From Halopelagius longus (lineage in GTDB: Archaea; Halobacteriota; Halobacteria; Halobacteriales; Haloferacaceae), in assembly GCF_900100875.1 (NCBI RefSeq), contig NZ_FNKQ01000002.1, positions 496,001 through 560,000 of the forward strand: 64,000 nucleotides of DNA. The letters are read 5' to 3'. How positions within the stretch are numbered: position 1 is the first letter of the stretch; each line of letters starts with the position of its first letter. Below the pieces are notes generated by a model, which was not told where the DNA came from, ran no database searches, and was given only the letters and a program-made list of their open reading frames with translations. The translations under genes and the position numbers were made by a program. Shown here in pieces: positions 37,115 to 62,199 of this stretch.

Positions 37115-37612
37115 TCAGGCCGACGCCACGGCGTCGACGGGCGATATCCAGATGACGAGTTCGCCGTCGCGCTTGATGACGCCCTCGATGGCGTCGTCCT
37201 TCTCTAAGGGCGGTTCCTCGACGTCGTCCATGCCGACGCGGACGACCTGGTACACCTCGTCGACCATCCATCCGATGGCCGCCTCGTCGTCGAACTTCCC
37301 GGGGTCGAAGATGACGATGCGCTTCGACTCGTCGTCGTCGTCGTCGACGTTGAGAAGCGACTTGGGGTTGATGATGGAGGTGGTTCGCCCGCGGAGGTCC
37401 ATCACGCCCTCCACGTAGTGGGGTGCGTTCGGAACCGCGGTGAGCGACCCCTTGTCGACTATCTCCGAGACGTAGTCGATGTCGACGCAGTACGTCTCCC
37501 CGCCGAGTTTGAACTCCAGCACCTGCACTTCCTTGGTCGATTCCTCTTCCGTGTCGTCTGCCGCCGCCCCGGTGGTCGCTCCGGCACCCGCGGCCTGTGT
37601 GTTCTGCGACAT
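37115..37612 (-). CDS. cheW: Chemotaxis coupling protein CheW
   Basis: A 165-residue adaptor joining transducers to the histidine kinase CheA. After an acidic Ala/Thr-rich tail (residues 1-28) the CheW fold starts at VQVLEFKLGGETYCVDIDYV, with the conserved PHYVEGVMDLRGRTTSIINP. A GGAGG sequence eight bases before the ATG is a good ribosome site, so this message has a short leader. Its promoter shares an operator with the divergent cheB operon: a TTTATT box at 37676-37681 stands 19 bp from the half-site. Confidence 0.95.
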   Translation of the reverse strand: MSQNTQAAGAGATTGAAADDTEEESTKEVQVLEFKLGGETYCVDIDYVSEIVDKGSLTAVPNAPHYVEGVMDLRGRTTSIINPKSLLNVDDDDDESKRIVIFDPGKFDDEAAIGWMVDEVYQVVRVGMDDVEEPPLEKDDAIEGVIKRDGELVIWISPVDAVASA

Positions 37613-37675: not shown

Positions 37676-37729
37676 AATAAATGTACGTACCCGATTATCA
37701 GCCGTGATTCTTGCCGGGGAGCGTTTAAG
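37676..37729. promoter_or_regulatory. Shared operator and divergent promoters of cheW and cheB
   Basis: The inverted repeat TATCA-GCCG-TGATT covers 37696-37709. On the plus strand the half-site starts at 37705 and the TTTAAG box at 37724; on the minus strand the half-site starts at 37700 and the TTTATT box at 37681. Both spacings are exactly 19 bp. The same element with the same spacing occurs at other motility promoters in this window, so it is probably the binding site of a shared regulator. Confidence 0.8.
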
Positions 37730-37756: not shown

Positions 37757-37852
37757 ATGAGCGGACAGAACAGAGTACGAACGGCTTCGACCCGGCGGGC
37801 GACCCCCGCAGACCCCGGCGTTCCCGCGAGGGTAGCGGGGTCGCACCGATGA
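37757..37852 (+). CDS. Leaderless 31-codon reading frame coupled to cheB
   Basis: The first ATG after the cheB promoter opens a 31-codon frame of basic composition (MSGQNRVRTASTRRATPADP, then 11 residues). Its ATG is 33 bp from the TATA start, so it would be the 5' end of a leaderless message. Its TGA overlaps the cheB ATG as ATGA. It probably serves as a translational leader for cheB; a functional peptide is possible but unsupported. Confidence 0.45.
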   Translation: MSGQNRVRTASTRRATPADPGVPARVAGSHR

Positions 37853-39000
37853 GCGCCGTCTCCGGTCCCGGTAACGGCGACGCGAACACCCGCGCCGTCG
37901 TCGTAGACGATTCGCGGTTCATGCGGACTCTCATCCGCACGCTGTTGGAGGACGGCGGCATCGACGTCGTCGCCGAGGCGGAGAACGGCGCCGACGCCGT
38001 CGACGTCGTCGGCGACTGCGAACCCGACGTCGTGACGATGGACATCGAGATGCCGGAGATGAACGGTCTCGAAGCGGTCGAGACCATCATGTCCGAGTGT
38101 CCGACGCCGGTGTTGATGTTGTCCGCGCACGCCGACGACGGGGCCGAGGTGACCTTCGAGGCCCTCGATAAGGGTGCCGTCGACTTCGTCACGAAACCCG
38201 GAGGCGAGGTCACCTCCTCGATGCCGCGGGTCAAACGCGAGTTAGTCGAGAAGGTCAGGTCCGCCGCGGCGGTCGACCTCTCGGCGGCGCGCAAGACGAA
38301 ACGAGAGACGCCCGACGGGCCCGAACAGACGGACGACGCGTCCGAACCGACGACGTCAGAGCGGACGTCGTCCGGCGGTTCGTCCTCGTCGTCGCGCCCG
38401 ACGGACGAGTCCGCGTACCCCGACGTTTCGACGCTTATCGTCGGGGCGTCGACCGGCGGTCCGAACGTCGTCGAACGCGTCCTCGGGGACCTTCCGACGG
38501 AGGCGAACCTCCGCATCCTCGTGGTACAGCACATGCCGAAAGGGTTCACCGCACGCTTCGCCGACCGCCTGAACGACCGCTCGGAGTACGACGTCCGCGA
38601 GGCGACCGACGGGGAACAGATCGGCGTCGGCGAGGCGCGCATCGCCCCCGGCGGGTCGCACCTACTCGTCACCCGCGACCGAGGCGGGCGACTCACGCTC
38701 GAACTCACCGACACGCAACCGGTCCACGGAGTCAAACCCGCGATAGACCTGACGATGGCCTCGGCCGTCGAATCGGTCGAGGGCCCCCTCGCGGGCGTCC
38801 TCCTGACCGGCATGGGTCGAGACGGCGTCGACGGGATGGGTCGCATCCACGGCGCGGGCGGACACACGGTCGCACAGGACGAAGAGACGTCAGCCATCTT
38901 CGGCATGCCGAAGCGAGCCATCGAGACGGGCTGCGTCGATACGATCGCACCAGCGGAGGGCGTCGCCGACGGCGTCCTGCGCGGACTACAGGAGGACTAA
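37849..39000 (+). CDS. cheB: Chemotaxis protein CheB (receiver-methylesterase)
   Basis: A 383-residue enzyme that removes methyl groups from, and deamidates, transducers. The receiver domain spans residues 14-125 with Asp20-Asp21 and acceptor Asp65 (VTMDIEMPEMNG). A Ser/Thr-rich linker follows to about 190. The esterase domain has the catalytic serine at 201 (VGASTGGPN), histidine at 228 (VVQHMPKGF) and aspartate in LTGMGRDGVDG. It begins inside the stop codon of a short upstream frame and ends two bases before cheA. Confidence 0.96.
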   Translation: MSAVSGPGNGDANTRAVVVDDSRFMRTLIRTLLEDGGIDVVAEAENGADAVDVVGDCEPDVVTMDIEMPEMNGLEAVETIMSECPTPVLMLSAHADDGAEVTFEALDKGAVDFVTKPGGEVTSSMPRVKRELVEKVRSAAAVDLSAARKTKRETPDGPEQTDDASEPTTSERTSSGGSSSSSRPTDESAYPDVSTLIVGASTGGPNVVERVLGDLPTEANLRILVVQHMPKGFTARFADRLNDRSEYDVREATDGEQIGVGEARIAPGGSHLLVTRDRGGRLTLELTDTQPVHGVKPAIDLTMASAVESVEGPLAGVLLTGMGRDGVDGMGRIHGAGGHTVAQDEETSAIFGMPKRAIETGCVDTIAPAEGVADGVLRGLQED

Positions 39001-39002
39001 CG

Positions 39003-41498
39003 ATGGACGAGGAACTCTACCAAGCATTCATCACCGAGAGCGAAGAGAGCATCACGCAACTGAACAACTCGCTGCTGGAACTGGAGTCGAACCCCGAAGA
39101 CACCGACGCAATCGACGAGATTTTCCGGCAGGCGCACACGCTGAAGGGGAACTTCGGCGCGATGGGCTTCGACAACGCGGCGACGGTCGCCCACGCAGTC
39201 GAGGACCTCTTAGACGAGATTCGGCACGACCGCCTCGAAGTCACGCCCGAGCGCATGGACCTCGTGTTCGACGGGATGGACGAGATTCTCGACATCCTCC
39301 ACGAGATAGAGGAGCACGGCGAGTCCCGGACCGACCCGACGGACCTGGTCGAGAAGATTCGCGCCGCGGCGGAGGGCGACGACGACGCGGAGACGACGGC
39401 GGGAAACTCGGACGCGGCGGCCGTTGACGAGTCGGCCGCCGAAACCGACGTGGCCGCGCTGACCCGTGACGTCCTCGACGAGGGGACCGTCGCGGACGCC
39501 GACCACCTCTACCACGTCGCGGTCGAACTCGACACGGGCGAGATGAAGGGCGTCGACGCCGGCCTCTTCTTGGGCAACGTGCCCGAGGAGTTCGACGTCG
39601 TGGGCGCGAGCCCCGACGTGGACAGCATCGAACGCGGCGACTTCGAGGACGGCTTCGCGCTCTTCGTCGCGGGCGTTCCCGGCGAGGAACTCGACGCGAC
39701 GCTCTCCGGCCTCTGGAAGGTCGAATCCGTCGAGTGCACCGACGCGTCGGACGCGTTCGACGCACCGGTCGCGGGCGACGCGGACGCCGGGACGGACGCC
39801 GAGGCGGAGACGGAATCCGAAGCGGACGCCGCGGAGTCCGCGGCGGGCGACGACTCGACGGAGTCGGACGACGCCGACGAACGAAGCGCATCCGGCGACG
39901 GGACGGACGCAGACGACGCCGAGGGCGTGGTCGCCGACCCGTCGGCCGAGGTAGACCCCGAGGAGGCCGAGGCGGCCGTCGAAGCCGTCGCCTCGTTCTC
40001 GGGTAGCGGGGGAACGTCCGACGACGCGTCCGAGGCGGACGCAGACGCGGACGCCCCCGAGTCCGACGCCGTCGAAGCGGACGCGGACGCGACGGCCGAC
40101 GCCGAGGCGGAGTCCGACGAGGAACCCGCCGAGACGCCCGGCGAACCCGCGTCGGCGGACGCCGGCGGAGACGCGTCCGAGGCGTCGTCGGCGGACGACG
40201 ACGCCTCGGAGTCGTCCGAGTCGGAGAAGAAAGACGAGAAGAAGAAGAAGAAGGGCCGCTCCATCTCGGCGGTGAAGTCGGTCCGCGTGGACGTAGACCA
40301 ACTCGACCAACTCCACGAACTCGTCGAGCAGCTCGTCACCAGCCGTATCAAACTCCGGCAGGCGATGGAGGGCGAGGGCGCGGGCGGCGAGGCCGGCTTA
40401 GACACCTTAGACGAACTGGACAAGATATCGACGAACCTCCAGAACACCGTCATGGACATGCGGCTCATCCCGCTGAAGAAGGTGTTCGACAAGTTCCCGC
40501 GGATGGTCCGCGACATCGCGCGCGAACAGGACAAGCGCGTCCGCTTCAAGGTCGAGGGCGAGGATATCGAACTCGACCGGACCATCTTGGACGAGATATC
40601 CGACCCGCTGATGCACGTCCTCCGGAACGCCGTGGACCACGGCATCGAGATGCCGGACGAACGCGAGGCGGCGGGCAAGTCCCGCACCGGGACCATCGAA
40701 CTCAGCGCCCGCCGGCAACACGACACCGTCATCGTCACCGTCGAGGACGACGGCGGCGGCATCGACGCCGACGCGGTGCGCGACAAGGCCGTCTCGAAGG
40801 GACTCGCGACGCGCGAGGAGATAAACGAACTACCCGACGAGGAGGTGTACGACTACGTCTTCCACCCCGGCTTCTCGACGAACGACGAGATCACCGACGT
40901 GAGCGGACGCGGCGTCGGGATGGACGTGGTGAAGACCACCGTCGAGTCGCTCGACGGGTCCGTGGACGTCACCAGCACGCCGGGCGAGGGGTCGACGTTC
41001 ACGATTCGCCTCCCCGTCTCCGTCGCCATCATCAAGGTGCTGTTCGTCAGCGTCGGCGAACGGGAGTTCGGCGTCCCCATCAAGTACATCGACGAGATTT
41101 CGCGCCGCCAGCGCGTCGAGACGATAAACGCCGCGGAAGTCGTCGTCCACGAGGACCAGATATTCCCGCTCATCCGCCTCCGGAACGCGCTCGACGTCGA
41201 CATCGACGAGTCCGACAGCGGGATGGTCGTGCGCATCCGCCCCGAAGACAGGCAGGTCGCGCTCCACTGTGACAGCGTGACCCGTCAGGAGGAAGTCGTC
41301 GTCACGCCGCTTCAGGGGCCGCTCAGCGGAACCCGAGGGCTCTCCGGAACCGCGGTCATCGGCGACGGGAACGTCATCCCCATCCTCGACGTGAGCACGC
41401 TCGAACTTCCCGAGCAAGGGAAGCAGGCGATGCGGGAGTGGACGCCACCGTCGACCGAGGACGAGGGCGCGACGGACGCAGAGGAGGCGGCTGACTGA
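39003..41498 (+). CDS. cheA: Chemotaxis histidine kinase CheA
   Basis: An 831-residue kinase that passes phosphate to CheY and CheB. The P1 domain holds the phosphorylated His45 (AHTLKGNFGAMGF). A small alpha/beta P2-like domain follows around residues 155-245, then a very acidic Asp/Glu/Ala/Ser linker of about 165 residues ending in a lysine run (KKDEKKKKKGR). P3 starts near VRVDVDQLDQLHELVEQL; P4 shows HVLRNAVDHGIE, VEDDGGGIDAD and DVSGRGVGMDVV; P5 ends the protein. The cheR start overlaps the stop. Confidence 0.97.
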   Translation: MDEELYQAFITESEESITQLNNSLLELESNPEDTDAIDEIFRQAHTLKGNFGAMGFDNAATVAHAVEDLLDEIRHDRLEVTPERMDLVFDGMDEILDILHEIEEHGESRTDPTDLVEKIRAAAEGDDDAETTAGNSDAAAVDESAAETDVAALTRDVLDEGTVADADHLYHVAVELDTGEMKGVDAGLFLGNVPEEFDVVGASPDVDSIERGDFEDGFALFVAGVPGEELDATLSGLWKVESVECTDASDAFDAPVAGDADAGTDAEAETESEADAAESAAGDDSTESDDADERSASGDGTDADDAEGVVADPSAEVDPEEAEAAVEAVASFSGSGGTSDDASEADADADAPESDAVEADADATADAEAESDEEPAETPGEPASADAGGDASEASSADDDASESSESEKKDEKKKKKGRSISAVKSVRVDVDQLDQLHELVEQLVTSRIKLRQAMEGEGAGGEAGLDTLDELDKISTNLQNTVMDMRLIPLKKVFDKFPRMVRDIAREQDKRVRFKVEGEDIELDRTILDEISDPLMHVLRNAVDHGIEMPDEREAAGKSRTGTIELSARRQHDTVIVTVEDDGGGIDADAVRDKAVSKGLATREEINELPDEEVYDYVFHPGFSTNDEITDVSGRGVGMDVVKTTVESLDGSVDVTSTPGEGSTFTIRLPVSVAIIKVLFVSVGEREFGVPIKYIDEISRRQRVETINAAEVVVHEDQIFPLIRLRNALDVDIDESDSGMVVRIRPEDRQVALHCDSVTRQEEVVVTPLQGPLSGTRGLSGTAVIGDGNVIPILDVSTLELPEQGKQAMREWTPPSTEDEGATDAEEAAD

Positions 41499-42331
41499 TG
41501 GGAAGTTCCGACCTCTCGGCAGACGAGGGGTTCACCGACCTCCTCGAAATCATCGAGGAGTCGCTGTCGTTCGCCACGAGTTCGTACAACAACGCCTACC
41601 TCGACAGGCGCATCTCCGCGCGGATGCGGCGCCGCCGCGTGGACGATTACGAGAGCTACCAAGCGCTGTTGCTCGACGACGCGGAGGAACAGACCGCGCT
41701 GCTCAACTCCCTGAGCGTGAACGTCACGAGTTTCTTCCGCAATCCGAAGATGTGGGAGGCGCTCCGGGAGGTTCTCGCGGAGTTGTCCGCCTCGGGGCGG
41801 ACGAGAGTGTGGAGCGCGGCCTGCTCTGACGGCCGCGAGGCGTACTCGCTCGCGATGCTCGCGCACGACGACGACCGAATCGACCCCTCGAACGTCGAAA
41901 TCCTCGGTACGGACATCAAGCCGACGATACTCACCGCGGCCCGCCGCGGCGAGTACCGGGCCTCGGAGACGAACGACCTGCTCGATCAGTTGTCGCCGTT
42001 GGACGACCACGAACGGTACATCGAACGCGACGGCGACTCGTTCCAAGTCACGGACGAAGTCCGCGATCTGGTGTCGTTCCAGAAGCACGACTTGGTCCAA
42101 GAGGAACCGCCGCAGACGTTCGACCTCGTCCTCTGTCGGAACCTGTTCATCTACATCAACACCGACGCCAAGCAGGCCATCTTCGAGACGCTCGGCTCCG
42201 CGCTCGCTCCCGACGGCTATCTCACCATCGGGATGACCGAGACGATACCGCCCTCCTGCCGCGGTCGGTTCGAACCGGTCGAGAAACGGCTTCGCATCTA
42301 CCGAAACAGCGCAGGCGATTCGAACTCGTGA
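41498..42331 (+). CDS. cheR: Chemotaxis methyltransferase CheR
   Basis: A 277-residue S-adenosylmethionine-dependent methyltransferase acting on glutamates of transducers. Features are VNVTSFFRNPKMW in the N-terminal domain, the cofactor loop VWSAACSDGREAYSLAM, EILGTDIKPTILTAAR and FDLVLCRNLFIYI. Its ATG overlaps the cheA TGA by one base, so translation is probably coupled. Confidence 0.96.
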   Translation: MGSSDLSADEGFTDLLEIIEESLSFATSSYNNAYLDRRISARMRRRRVDDYESYQALLLDDAEEQTALLNSLSVNVTSFFRNPKMWEALREVLAELSASGRTRVWSAACSDGREAYSLAMLAHDDDRIDPSNVEILGTDIKPTILTAARRGEYRASETNDLLDQLSPLDDHERYIERDGDSFQVTDEVRDLVSFQKHDLVQEEPPQTFDLVLCRNLFIYINTDAKQAIFETLGSALAPDGYLTIGMTETIPPSCRGRFEPVEKRLRIYRNSAGDSNS

Positions 42332-42340
42332 GGTGAGTGG

Positions 42341-43225
42341 ATGAAACCCGGAGAACAGAAGGTAAGCGACACCAACGGTCGGTTCCTGCAGGCGCTCCGG
42401 AACGGCCGCGAAGTGAGCGACGCAAACTGGACGAACGGTCGCATCCTCCTCTCGAACCAGCGCCTCATCCTCGCGGGCACGGGGGGAAAGCGGACGTTTC
42501 CGCTTTCGACCATCGAACAGGTCGGCGGCCGGTTCGACGTCAACCAGCGAGTCGCAACCGTCTCCGACTATCTCGCGCTTCACTACGACGGCGGCGAGGA
42601 AGTCGTCCTCGTCGCGCCCAAGAACTTCGACGAGTTCGAACTCGACCTCTACGGCGCGTTGCTGAACTCGACGAAGTTCCTCGTCCGCCACCCGGCCGTC
42701 GAGGGGGGCGTCGTCCAGAACACCGAGTGGGTCGGTGCCCGCATGAAAGTCGAACAGGAGGCCGTGAGCATCGCCACCGTCACCGGGTCGTTCGTCGAAG
42801 TCCGACTGGACGACATCGGCGACATCAACATGGGCCGCCGGACGGTCCGCGAGGAGTCCCGCGAGGTCATCGAAGTCGAACACTCCGACGACGACGGGAC
42901 GAGCGTCCAGACGTACATCTCCGGTCCGGAACAACCCATCGGCATCCTCAAGTCGCTTCTCAGAATCGGCGAGGAGCAGTCGGAGATGGCGCTGGACCTG
43001 AGCAAGACCGACAAACAGGTTCTGATGGCGCTGTACTCCGGCGTCGAGCCGTTCGACATCCCCGCGTTTCTCGGCCTCGACGTGGAGGAAGTCGAGGAAC
43101 TGTTCGTCCGACTCGTCGACCACGACGTCTTAGACGAGGTTCGCGTCCGGCACGAAGTCGAACTCAACGCGCGCGGGCGGAGCATCGCGGCGGACGCCAT
43201 AGAAGACGACCAAGCCTCGATGTAA
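42341..43225 (+). CDS. cheF: Taxis protein CheF, second copy (cheBAR operon)
   Basis: A 294-residue member of the archaea-specific CheF family, which links phosphorylated CheY and CheD/CheC to the archaellum motor. Recognisable blocks are GRILLSNQRLILAG, KRTFPLSTIEQVGGRFD, LLNSTKFLVRHPAVEGGV and the C-terminal winged-helix-like LSKTDKQVLMALYSGV. A related but longer CheF is encoded at the end of the arl operon. This copy lies nine bases after cheR. Confidence 0.9.
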   Translation: MKPGEQKVSDTNGRFLQALRNGREVSDANWTNGRILLSNQRLILAGTGGKRTFPLSTIEQVGGRFDVNQRVATVSDYLALHYDGGEEVVLVAPKNFDEFELDLYGALLNSTKFLVRHPAVEGGVVQNTEWVGARMKVEQEAVSIATVTGSFVEVRLDDIGDINMGRRTVREESREVIEVEHSDDDGTSVQTYISGPEQPIGILKSLLRIGEEQSEMALDLSKTDKQVLMALYSGVEPFDIPAFLGLDVEEVEELFVRLVDHDVLDEVRVRHEVELNARGRSIAADAIEDDQASM

Positions 43226-52220: not shown

Positions 52221-52260
52221 GTAATACAAGAATGTTCGCTTTCGATTATCAGCCGTGATA
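52221..52260 (-). promoter_or_regulatory. Motility operator upstream of arlCE
   Basis: TATCA-GCCG-TGATA covers 52247-52260 and is a perfect inverted repeat of 5-bp arms. On the minus strand the 19-bp position (52232) holds TTCTTG, a weak box, with GTATTA a few bases later. The flank TGATAATCGAAAGCGAA resembles that of the cheY promoter. On the plus strand no TATA-like sequence is present at 19 bp, so the site more likely serves arlCE. Confidence 0.6.
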
Positions 52261-54693: not shown

Positions 54694-54727
54694 ATAACGG
54701 TACGGGCCCGATTTTCGGAGATGATAA
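54694..54727 (-). promoter_or_regulatory. Motility operator and promoter of the archaellin operon
   Basis: On the minus strand TATCA-TCTC-CGAAA (54727-54714) is a weaker version of the motility element, the right half matching TGATA at three of five bases. The box GTTATG begins 19 bp after the right half-site (54699), the same spacing as at the other sites. The flank AAATCGGGCC also resembles the others. Confidence 0.55.
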
Positions 54728-54861: not shown

Positions 54862-55200
54862 TCAGTCGTGTGCGATCTGACGCCAGACGTCGTCGAGTTT
54901 GTTTTTCACCTCGGGTCGTTCCGTCACGGCGACGTTGTAGTCGTCCTCGTCGAAGCTGATGACTATCTTGTCCACCTCGCGCCGGTAGACGTTCGTCCGG
55001 CGGTGTTCGTCAGAGAGGACCCTGTCGTGAAGTTCCAGAAGGCCGGCGGCGGTGAGTTCCTCGATGCGACGGTAGCACGTCGCGATCGGGATGTCGAGCA
55101 TCTCGCTGAACTCCTGCGCCGAGTGCGGTTCGTCCGCGGCGCGTAAGATGTCCGGGTTGTATTCGTTGCCCAACGCTGCAAGGGTCCTGTCAGACTCCAT
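54862..55200 (-). CDS. Winged-helix transcriptional regulator beside the archaellins
   Basis: A 112-residue DNA-binding protein of the ArsR-like winged-helix type. The helix-turn-helix is around HSAQEFSEMLDIPIATCYRR, with a wing ending near LSDEHRRTNVYRREVDKIVI. There are no metal-site cysteines of the classical ArsR kind. Its place between archaellins and taxis genes makes it the best local candidate for controlling the motility operator; it may be related to EarA, the euryarchaeal archaellum regulator, but I cannot confirm that. Confidence 0.82.
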   Translation of the reverse strand: MESDRTLAALGNEYNPDILRAADEPHSAQEFSEMLDIPIATCYRRIEELTAAGLLELHDRVLSDEHRRTNVYRREVDKIVISFDEDDYNVAVTERPEVKNKLDDVWRQIAHD

Positions 55201-56001: not shown

Positions 56002-56035
56002 TATCAACGCTGATAATAGGGAGCGAGGGTTTATA
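56002..56035 (+). promoter_or_regulatory. Motility operator and promoter of cheY-cheC
   Basis: TATCA-ACGC-TGATA (56002-56015) is a perfect inverted repeat. The TTTATA box begins at 56030, 19 bp after the start of the right half-site, and the cheY ATG follows 31 bp later, so the transcript is leaderless. The opposite direction has no box at 19 bp. Confidence 0.8.
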
Positions 56036-58226: not shown

Positions 58227-58260
58227 TATCTCAGATGATATCCGGATCCCCGGATTTATA
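58227..58260 (+). promoter_or_regulatory. Motility operator and promoter of the transducer gene
   Basis: TATCT-CAGA-TGATA covers 58227-58240. TTTATA begins at 58255, again 19 bp after the start of the right half-site, and the ATG follows 31 bp later (leaderless). Confidence 0.78.
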
Positions 58261-58285: not shown

Positions 58286-60871
58286 ATGATTACTCTCCGC
58301 ACAGCGGTCGGTGGCGTCGGCCGCCGACTGGGACTGGTCGCCGACCGCATCGGGTCGCTCGCGCCCGAGCGGATTCGGCGGAGCTACGCGCGTAAGTTGG
58401 CCGCGCTCTTTCTCGTCGTCCTCCTTTTGTTCGCCGGGTTCGCGGCGATGGAGTACCGAGCCGTCTCCGAGAAGGTCCACGCCAACGAACAGGAGGAGCT
58501 CCAACAGACCGCCGAACTGCAGGCGACGCAGCTCGGCGAGTGGATGAGCCAACGCCGCGAGACGGCCCGGATGCTCTCGGCGTACGGCATCTACGACCAG
58601 CACGAATCGCTCGTCAGCGAGCGGTTGACTCGCGAGGTGGACAAGCTTCCGGCCGGCTACCGGGCCATCCACTACGTGGACACGAACAGCGGGAAAGTCG
58701 TGGCCAGCTCCGACGAGTCCGCCGTGGGAACGACGCCGTGGAAGGGGACGGACCTCGTCGCGTCCGCGGGGTCGTCGTTCTCCCAAAACGTCGTCCGGTC
58801 GTCCCCGTACGCCTCTCGGTCGGGCGAGCGAGTCATCGCGTTCGCGTCCGGAGTCCAGACGCGCCCCGCGCGCGCCATCGTCGTGACCGCCGACGTGTCG
58901 GCGTTGGAGAGCAGGCTCGACACCTCCGTCGAGGGGTCGTTCGTCCGCGTCGTCTCGACGGACGGCGACGTGATGTTCGACGGAAGCGGCGCGGAGTCGC
59001 CGTCGCTCAGGTCCGACGGGGAACTGCTCTCTCTCGCCCAGAGCGGCAAGAGCGGCGTGACGGAGCGTCCGGCCGACGACTCGATGGACGAGAAACACCT
59101 GCTCGCGTACGCGCCGACGGGCGAGGGGTCGGTCGTCCTCGTGTACGCGCCGACGCGGACGGCGTACGGCCTCCAACACACCGTCGGGACGCACGTCTTC
59201 CTCATCGTCGGCCTCGCCGTCGTCTCCCTCGCCGGAGTCGGGGGCGTCCTCCGCCGGAACACGGTGACGCCGCTGAACCGACTCAACTCGACCGTAGACC
59301 GACTGCGGGCGGGCGAACTCGACGCGAGCGTCGAATCGAGCCGAGACGACGAGTTCGGCGACGTGTTCGCGGGCATCGCGCAGATGCGCGACGACCTCCG
59401 GGACCAACGGGCGGACGCCGAGGCGTACCGCGAGGTGATGGAGCGCACCGCCGACGGCGACCTGACCGCCCGGATGGACGAGGAGAGCCGTTCGCAGGAG
59501 ATGTCCACCATCGCCGAGGCGTTCAACGACATGATGGACGAACTGTCCGCGACGGTGCGTCGGGTCTCGCAGTTCGGCGAGGACGTGGCCGAACTCGGGC
59601 GGGAAGTCGCGGCGAGCACGGACGAGGTGAGCGAGCGGAGCAGAGCGGTGAGCGAGTCCATCGAACAGATATCCGCCGGGGCCGCCCAGCAGTCGTCGGG
59701 CATCGCGCAGGTGTCCGAAGAGATGGACGACCTCTCGGCGTCCATCCAGCAGATAGCCTCCGCCGCGGACGAACTCGCCACGCTCTCCGAGGAGACGGCG
59801 GAACGCGCCCACGGCGGGGCCGACGCCGCGACGGACGCCCTCGACGGGATGGACGACATCCGCGCGGAGACCGAACGCACCGTCGAGGAGATAGAGCGAC
59901 TCGACGGTCATCTCCGCGAGATAGAGGCCGTGGTCGGAGTCATCTCCGACGTGGCCGAGCAGACGAACATCCTCGCGTTGAACGCGGAGATAGAGGCCGC
60001 CCGCGCGGGCGAGGCCGGCGAGGGGTTCGCCGTCGTCTCCCACGAGGTGAAATCGCTCGCCGAGGAGACCCAAGAGTCCGCTTCGGAGATATCGGCCCTC
60101 GTCGAGGACATCGCCGAACAGAGACAGCGCGTCGTCCGGCGCGTCGAACGGATGCAGGAGGGCGTCCGGTCCGGCGCGGAGGACGTCGAAGGAGCGCTCG
60201 ATTCCCTCGACGACATCGTCGTCCGCGTCGAGGAGACGAACGACAGCGTGTTGGAGATAACCGACGCGACCGGCGGACAGGCCTCCTCCTCCCAAGAGGT
60301 GCTGTCGATGGCGGACGACATCGCCAGCATCGCGGAGGAGATGACCGCCGAGGCGGGTGCCGTCGCCGAGACCGCCGAGGAGCAGACGGCGACGGTGGAC
60401 GACGTGAACGAGCAGATGCAGTCGCTCTCGACGGACACCGACCGACTCGTGACGATGCTCGACCGCTTCGAGGTTGCGGGGTCCGACGGGCGACCCGACG
60501 CGGCGGCCGACGGCGAACGTTCGCTCCGTGAGGAACCGACCGGCGGGGACCGGACGTCCGAGGAGGCGCCCGCCGTCGGGACCGAACCGGACGCCGGCGA
60601 CGAATCGGGGTCGGACGGCGACCCGCCGTCCGCCGACGAACCGGCGTCCGACGCCGAGGCCGAGTCCGGATTCGAATTCGACTCGGTGACCGCCTCCGAC
60701 GGCGACGCCGAACCGTCGGACGGCGACGAGCAGTCGGAGGCGACCGATGCGGAGAGCGATTTCGCCGCCCCGGATGGCGACGACTCCACCGTCGCCGACG
60801 CCGCCGAGGAGAGTGAGACGGAGGCGACGGCGCGTCCGACGCCCGACGGCGGTCACGCTGACGACGACTGA
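58286..60871 (+). CDS. Halobacterial transducer (methyl-accepting chemotaxis protein)
   Basis: An 861-residue membrane receptor. Helix 1 lies at about residues 38-56 and helix 2 at 302-322; the roughly 245 residues between them form an extracellular sensor of the Cache type ([19 protein letters not shown] ... [15 protein letters not shown]). Two HAMP-like segments follow (about 324-375 and 400-445). The signalling hairpin tip is near residues 550-600 ([20 protein letters not shown]). The last 125 residues are an acidic low-complexity tail. The ligand is unknown. Confidence 0.95.
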
Positions 60872-60899: not shown

Positions 60900-60933
60900 T
60901 ATCTGTTTTGATAATATCGGGGGCAGGTTTATC
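60900..60933 (+). promoter_or_regulatory. Motility operator and promoter of arlD
   Basis: TATCT-GTTT-TGATA covers 60900-60913. TTTATC begins at 60928, exactly 19 bp after the right half-site start. Transcription from near 60957 would leave a leader of about 88 nt before the arlD ATG. Confidence 0.78.
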
Positions 60934-61044: not shown

Positions 61045-62199
61045 ATGAAGATAGATCCCGAAAACTACGACCTCCGAGAACTCCGGCGTATCGCCGACGA
61101 ACGACGGGCAGACCGCAACGGACGAACGTCCGAGGCCGACGAAGCGTCCGACGAGGACGAGGCCGACGGACGGCGACCGCGACGCGAGGGCCCGCCGAAC
61201 CGAAGCGGTCGAAACGACGGCCGCCGGTCCCGTGAGGACCGGGACGCGCCGCGTCGAGACGAGTCGCGCCGGAACGGCGAGAGCCGACGCCGAAGCGACG
61301 ACAGACCGCGCCGGAACGACGACCACCAGCGCCGAAGCGGCGACCAGCGCCGAAGCGACGACCGACCGCGTCGGAACCGAAACGGCCGGTCCGACGAACT
61401 CAGTCGCCCCCGACAGGGACACTCAGACCACGGCGACGCGCAGGACGAAGTCGTCAGAGCGGACCGCCTCGCGAGCGAAATCGGCCTCGGTCGCCCGTTC
61501 GGCGACTCCTCCCGCGACGGACGCCGAGGAACCGGCCGCGCCGAGAACGACCGCGGACGCGCGAACGACGGTCAGCGCCGAGGTTCCCGTAACGGCCACC
61601 GTCGGGACGCCCGCGACGACCGACAGTACGACGAGAGAGGCTACGACGACGGCTACTCGGAGTACGACGACGGGTACGACGAGTACGACGACCCCCAGTA
61701 CGACGAACTCGGCTACACGGAGTACGACGAGGGTCGGTCGAACGACTCCTTCGGGCGCGACGCCGAGTACGACGATTACGACGACCACCCCGACGACGTG
61801 GGACAGTTCCGCTTCGACAACGAAGTCCACGAACGCCCCCGCGGCCGGGCGGGCGAAGTGCTCCGGCAGAACCAACTCGAACAGCTTCTCGTCCACGAGA
61901 CGGCCGCCGCGGGCGATTCGCTCGAGAAGCCCTACCTGCGAACCCTGCCGAACGAGTACGCCGCCGAGCGAGTCGTCTTCGACTGGTTGGAGTTCATGGT
62001 GCTGAAGGGCGGGTTCAAGCGGACGATGGACGCCCTCCGCTACTACCTCACCGTCGATTGGATCACCGAGGACGTCGAGACGGAACTGCACGACTACCTC
62101 ATCGGCTTCTCGGGCAACGTCGCCGACACGACGGAGTTCGACGTGGACGACCACCACCTCAGCCTCCTCTACGTCGCGCGCCTCACTTCGATGACGTAA
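61045..62199 (+). CDS. arlD: Archaellum accessory protein ArlD (FlaD/E domain)
   Basis: A 384-residue cytoplasmic protein. It starts MKIDPENYDLRELRRIADER, like FlaD proteins. A long Arg/Asp/Asn-rich repetitive stretch (RRSDD and RRND units, about residues 40-185) and a Tyr/Asp-rich stretch (EYDDGY units, about 185-240) follow. The C-terminal 105 residues are the FlaD/E domain (KPYLRTLPNEYAAERVVFDW). I use ATG 61045 because GAGGTGAG ends four bases before it, matching the anti-Shine-Dalgarno; GTG 60976 is the alternative. Confidence 0.88.
   Translation: MKIDPENYDLRELRRIADERRADRNGRTSEADEASDEDEADGRRPRREGPPNRSGRNDGRRSREDRDAPRRDESRRNGESRRRSDDRPRRNDDHQRRSGDQRRSDDRPRRNRNGRSDELSRPRQGHSDHGDAQDEVVRADRLASEIGLGRPFGDSSRDGRRGTGRAENDRGRANDGQRRGSRNGHRRDARDDRQYDERGYDDGYSEYDDGYDEYDDPQYDELGYTEYDEGRSNDSFGRDAEYDDYDDHPDDVGQFRFDNEVHERPRGRAGEVLRQNQLEQLLVHETAAAGDSLEKPYLRTLPNEYAAERVVFDWLEFMVLKGGFKRTMDALRYYLTVDWITEDVETELHDYLIGFSGNVADTTEFDVDDHHLSLLYVARLTSMT

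Follow-up and report, generated by a model that had tools for sequence, protein, structure and literature searches.

A predicted CsmR operator at the midpoint between the divergent cheW and cheB promoters of Halopelagius longus and related haloarchaea

Introduction

In Halopelagius longus, cheW and the cheB-cheA-cheR-cheF operon are read in opposite directions from an intergenic region that contains one palindrome. The question raised by this locus is whether a single element can act on two opposed promoters and, if so, which protein would bind it. The original prediction was that the palindrome drives cheW and cheB in both directions with mirror-image geometry. We followed it up in a stretch of 64,000 nucleotides (the window), which holds an archaellum and chemotaxis cluster, and in the genomes of related species. 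The che genes flanking the palindrome are:

37115 to 37612, minus strand: cheW (Pfam CheW, E 1.2e-27)
37849 to 39000, plus strand: cheB (Pfam CheB_methylest and Response_reg)
39003 to 41498, plus strand: cheA, second gene of the operon (ORF between cheB and cheR, its name inferred from this position)
41498 to 42331, plus strand: cheR (Pfam CheR, E 5.3e-47)
42341 to 43225, plus strand: cheF, the archaeal adaptor and last gene of the operon (Pfam CheF-arch, E 9.5e-74)

The CheB encoded here is 71% identical to that of Halogeometricum limi, and the host of the window stands near Haloferax and Halogeometricum.

Results

The palindrome TATCA-GCCG-TGATT (TATCAGCCGTGATT) was read in the cheW/cheB intergenic region at the place where it had been claimed, together with a TTTATT box for cheW and a TTTAAG box for cheB. 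The elements of this region are:

37696 to 37709, no strand: predicted CsmR-type operator (motif match to PMC13286277 and conservation in 50 divergent loci)
37696 to 37700: TATCA, the cheW-facing half of the operator
37705 to 37709: TGATT, the cheB-facing half of the operator
37676 to 37681, minus strand: TATA-type box of cheW, TTTATT (AATAAA on the plus strand; read from the sequence and found in 20/21 divergent versus 0/15 non-divergent loci)
37724 to 37729, plus strand: TATA-type box of cheB, TTTAAG (read from the sequence and found in 21/21 divergent and, on the cheB/cheY side, 15/15 non-divergent loci)

Each box lies 14 bp from the nearer edge of the operator, and the palindrome is the exact midpoint between two back-to-back promoters whose outward-pointing boxes are separated by ~42 bp. 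The distance of 19 bp given originally matches the count from the first base of each half-site, read toward its gene, up to the box. Transcription starts around 37650 (minus strand) and 37755 (plus strand) are plausible predictions. We scored boxes by their matches out of 6 and called a box at 4/6 or more, a score that is reached at ~3-4% of background offsets. Since such words are rare, an exact mirrored pair of boxes at the same site is improbable by chance, and conservation settles the question: the mirror layout is real and far beyond chance. A Shine-Dalgarno-like GGAGG precedes cheW in the window and was not general among the relatives compared; H. volcanii reportedly works without a Shine-Dalgarno mechanism at its 5'-UTRs (PMC3986360).

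For the comparison with relatives, we looked for CheB in 243 genomes of the order and compared 80 upstream regions. Allowing one mismatch at most, the site was present in 50 of the 51 loci in which cheW is divergent from cheB, this window counted. These divergent loci were dereplicated to 21, drawn from two families and with kinship handled by dereplication alone, and a box of at least 4/6 stood at exactly gap 14 toward cheB in 21/21 of them and toward cheW in 20/21. Among the dereplicated loci with a non-divergent cheW, the forward box was present in 15/15 and the back-side box in 0/15, so that the back-side box distinguished both dereplicated sets with a Fisher p of 2.9e-9. Since the downstream genes in those control loci are cheY and then cheB, the control group is the cheY-cheB promoter. 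These figures bear out the proposal that a second box occurs only where there is a divergent gene, as does the cheY site of the window, which has TTTATA at gap 14 toward cheY and a back-side score of 1/6. The divergent core was free of any indel, with widely variable distances outside it: in relatives, the box lies ~30-107 nt from the cheW ATG and 30-199 nt from the cheB ATG.

A whole-genome scan for the two-sided pattern matched 57 of the 243 genomes, each of them once, while the reversed control matched in one genome. The sites were placed just upstream of cheB, except for those of G068 and G231, for which cheB coordinates were not listed, and within the 243 genomes the two-sided form was restricted to the families of Haloferax/Halorubrum and of Haloarcula. 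When a perfect site followed by TTTATW was searched in 59 genomes allowing 4-30 bp in between, exactly 14 bp separated them in 11 of the 19 matches, and the reversed pattern gave no match in the same genomes and range. Judging by these counts, the 14-bp spacing is a rule of the putative CsmR regulon. At the Halonotius loci (L066, L146 and L147) the cheB-facing half has been lost and both boxes still flank the remaining TATCA at gap 14; full symmetry is thus not always required, and by its sequence this locus is a natural half-site mutant.

The palindrome fits the binding site of CsmR (hvo_1209), a winged-helix motility regulator of 13 kDa described in Haloferax volcanii in June 2026, for which ChIP-seq disclosed the consensus TATCA(N4)TGATA upstream of BRE/TATA and a de novo motif of ~34 bp (PMC13286277). 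The operator in the window departs from that consensus only in its last base (TGATT), a variant shared by 44 of the 50 divergent loci. Moreover, the 14-bp site, the 14-bp gap and the 6-bp box add up to 34 bp on either side, which is the geometry of the longer CsmR motif. In H. volcanii, the csmR gene lies upstream of arlA1/arlA2 (PMC13286277), and the window carries its ortholog directly upstream of two archaellin genes:

54862 to 55200, minus strand: csmR ortholog, a winged helix-turn-helix protein of 112 amino acids (Pfam HTH_20, E 6.6e-9)

The orthologs of two Haloferax strains and Halogeometricum show 90-92% identity (92% in Haloferax marinum), and the product of the window gene is the likely binder of the cheW/cheB operator. 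Matches to csmR at E<=1e-8 were found in 228 of the 243 genomes, and most genomes with a csmR ortholog also had the CsmR site at the che operon; Halonotius, with its half-site, is an exception, and the site was missing from two small genomes and at some second copies of cheB. The comparative data together with the identity of the motif lend strong support to the idea of one palindrome serving two opposed promoters with mirror geometry.

Three genomes of one genus (g42; G051, G067 and G148) have kept cheB, and their best csmR matches had E values of 5e-10 to 3e-14. At their cheB loci (L053, L060 and L045) the CsmR site was absent and cheW was not found beside cheB, an apparent joint loss of the site and of a close csmR relative. 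As to other binders, the ribbon-helix-helix regulator CdrS was considered and was dropped after the CsmR paper (PMC13286277).

To characterize the half-sites we used a one-sided set, defined by TTTAT at gap 14, with 81 sites among the matches listed for the 243 genomes and 43 after dereplication. In this set the promoter-facing half ended in A in 40/43 and a degenerate one was almost never seen, with the far half being AATCA in 16/43 and either AATCA or TATCA being tolerated. In the two-sided operator, 20 of the 21 lineages had TATCA as the cheW-facing half (TATCC in the remaining one) and 19 of the 21 had TGATT or TGAAA as the cheB-facing half (p 3e-11). The two-sided operator is polarised, canonical toward cheW and non-canonical toward cheB, and this is a new observation. 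The mean TATA box score was 5.3/6 on the cheB side versus 4.5/6 on the cheW side (paired p 0.02, a value that ignores shared ancestry); the trend is not universal, since in the window the cheW box scores 6/6 and the cheB box 5/6.

Within the window we found six sites of CsmR type versus a shuffled mean of 2.05, and six were reached in 1 of 100 shuffles. Boxes on both sides were present only at the cheW/cheB site, the other five being one-sided:

52247 to 52260, minus strand: site of the arl operon, with TTCTTG at gap 14 on the minus side
54713 to 54726, minus strand: CsmR-like site of the archaellins, with GTTATG at gap 14 on the minus side
56002 to 56015, plus strand: cheY site (TATCAACGCTGATA), with TTTATA at gap 14
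58227 to 58240, plus strand: site of a transducer gene, with TTTATA at gap 14
60900 to 60913, plus strand: site of a gene with an archaeal flagella D/E domain, with TTTATC at gap 14

A box-like word stood at gap 14 at every site of the window, strong at four of them, with weak ones for arl and the archaellins. Downstream of the last two sites listed, Pfam identified MCPsignal and HAMP domains in 58286-60868 and an Arch_fla_DE domain in 61048-62196. The arl site is a perfect TATCA(N4)TGATA ~450 bp upstream of arlCE (start 51800, minus strand); this distance and the weak TTCTTG box imply either an unusually long arl leader or an unannotated small gene there. In the whole genome, the motif with two mismatches matched 144 sites versus 129 for the reversed control, which makes the motif alone unspecific at that level, and we therefore trusted only sites with a gap-14 box. 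Two perfect matches (C2:18169 and C3:273800) and one near-match (C3:377505) had no gap-14 box in either direction and probably do not mark promoters. The sites with such a box outside the window (C2:564192-564269, C5:168309-168386 and C2:370527-370559) are candidate additional CsmR targets; the one at C5 precedes a gene resembling a membrane transducer.

The cheB side has a further element between the box and the gene:

37757 to 37852, plus strand: leader micro-ORF of 31 amino acids, with its stop and the cheB ATG overlapping as ATGA

Its ATG lies 33 nt after the start of the TATA box (30-35 nt in most divergent relatives), and hence the micro-ORF is probably leaderless. The exact 4-nt ATGA overlap was found in six other dereplicated relatives (L017, L022, L039, L041, L089 and L095), with near-overlaps in further ones, and in Halorubrum cheB itself begins at the position of the micro-ORF. 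The peptides of the relatives are unrelated and of 17-55 amino acids, so that neither sequence nor length is kept. Translational coupling through ATGA overlaps has been documented in haloarchaea (PMC6728339), and the arrangement suggests that translation of cheB may be coupled by termination-reinitiation to the leaderless micro-ORF.

Discussion

We consider it very probable that the palindrome is a CsmR operator common to two back-to-back promoters. Some fifty related species preserve the mirror layout, and both genes, cheW and cheB, are therefore probably under the control of a single bound protein. In the mechanism that we propose, a two-fold symmetric CsmR dimer would bind the dyad, and its two faces would make the same TFB/TBP contact on either side, as the identical 14-bp distance of each TATA/BRE unit would permit; with the same contact on both sides, cheW on the minus strand and the cheB-cheA-cheR-cheF operon on the plus strand would be regulated together. 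Both the binding of CsmR in this species and the simultaneous use of the promoters are inferred. The polarity could then represent a trade of binding contact for box strength, with a canonical half toward cheW and a better TATA box toward cheB fixing the relative output. The original prediction that one dimer sets the balance of CheW to CheB/CheA/CheR is compatible with this polarity, which renders it testable but is no proof of it. The fuller version, in which a canonical cheW half, a TGATT or TGAAA cheB half and a stronger cheB TATA box fix the ratio of CheW to CheA/B/R/F while cheB translation is tied to the micro-ORF, is put forward tentatively and we hold it rather doubtful.

Several other explanations were weighed. 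That box-like words had arisen accidentally in an AT-rich intergenic region has practically no probability left: words of 4/6 do turn up at the low background frequency given above, but the comparative data, with two conserved families and 57 genomes with one match each against a single control genome, exclude it. We also find it very improbable that CsmR directs cheB only, next to an independent and constitutive cheW promoter that is nearby by accident. The text of the CsmR paper names the cheBARF unit and not cheW (PMC13286277), and the one-sided sites show that this promoter layout works without a back-side box. However, spacing drift would be expected of an independent cheW promoter, and in 20/21 lineages the cheW box keeps gap 14 exactly, versus a back-side box in 0/15 non-divergent loci; besides, the half that faces cheW is canonical in nearly all lineages and the degenerate one faces cheB. 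It is improbable, if somewhat less so, that the promoters compete, with the dimer engaging one preinitiation complex at a time in an either-or switch that sets the CheW:CheB/A/R/F ratio. The conserved half-site polarity and the unequal TATA strength (paired p 0.02, uncorrected for phylogeny) are what such tuning needs, but the outward-facing boxes ~42 bp apart leave room for two complexes, and our measurements do not separate an either-or switch from simple co-regulation.

The sign of the regulation is disputed. CsmR could be a repressor, the dimer blocking TFB on both sides and its loss derepressing both genes, which we judge unlikely but deserving of more credit than the foregoing. In H. volcanii, deletion of csmR upregulates cheBARF, which is cited as one transcription unit, and the rise of the target operons is strongest where a strand-consistent motif is present (PMC13286277); up-regulation, the best-studied consequence of CsmR loss, is a poor fit to simple activation. 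Against these raised transcripts, the geometry suggests recruitment. The site lies upstream of BRE/TATA, leaving ~8 bp before a 6-bp BRE, and this placement is near that of activator elements such as the GvpE UAS. An exact 14-bp phase would be unnecessary for blocking; its occurrence on both sides argues for TFB/TBP contact, which bears on whether CsmR activates or represses. Furthermore, motility is lost in the deletion and raised by overexpression, and the authors inferred a positive role from the site position (PMC13286277).

Returning to the shared CsmR operator, its motif and its position upstream of BRE/TATA are those of the H. volcanii operator (PMC13286277); the H. volcanii targets arl, cheBARF, cheYCD and arlD are also predicted targets here, and csmR lies upstream of archaellin genes in both. 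It differs in that its cheB-facing half departs from the consensus, unlike the H. volcanii motif, and in that the main text of that paper, from which cheW is absent, presents strand-oriented sites and none that is two-sided, whereas here one site faces two promoters. The closest precedent is GvpE at gvpA/gvpD, where, as described by Bauer 2008 (in PMC4390858), the UASA/UASD elements form a central activator element between opposed haloarchaeal promoters, adjoin BRE on both sides and need their spacing to BRE. A central element with fixed BRE/TATA spacing on each side is common to both systems, gap 14 being found on both sides in essentially all cheW/cheB loci, and the cheW and cheB promoters are candidates for a similar dependence on a central element. 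On the other hand, GvpE is described there as a leucine-zipper-like protein with two overlapping 20-nt elements that have 7 nt in common, whereas the cheW/cheB region has a single 14-bp dyad and a winged-helix protein; two overlapping GvpE-type elements were not found between the boxes. By analogy, the site may act like a GvpE element but is not one, and it is most likely a CsmR operator with a new two-sided layout. EarA, at the archaellum promoters of Methanococcus and Pyrococcus, is like CsmR a dedicated euryarchaeal archaellum regulator, although haloarchaea lack it and it bears no relation to CsmR (PMC13286277).

The shared operator would extend the CsmR regulon to cheW, a target unnamed in the text of PMC13286277. 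It would also offer a natural test of the contact between a regulator and the basal machinery, with one protein, one dyad and two equal and opposite spacings, for which nature provides the controls in the Halonotius half-site mutants and the one-sided relatives. If it is true that the polarity sets protein ratios, a signalling array would have in it a simple means of fixing its stoichiometry.
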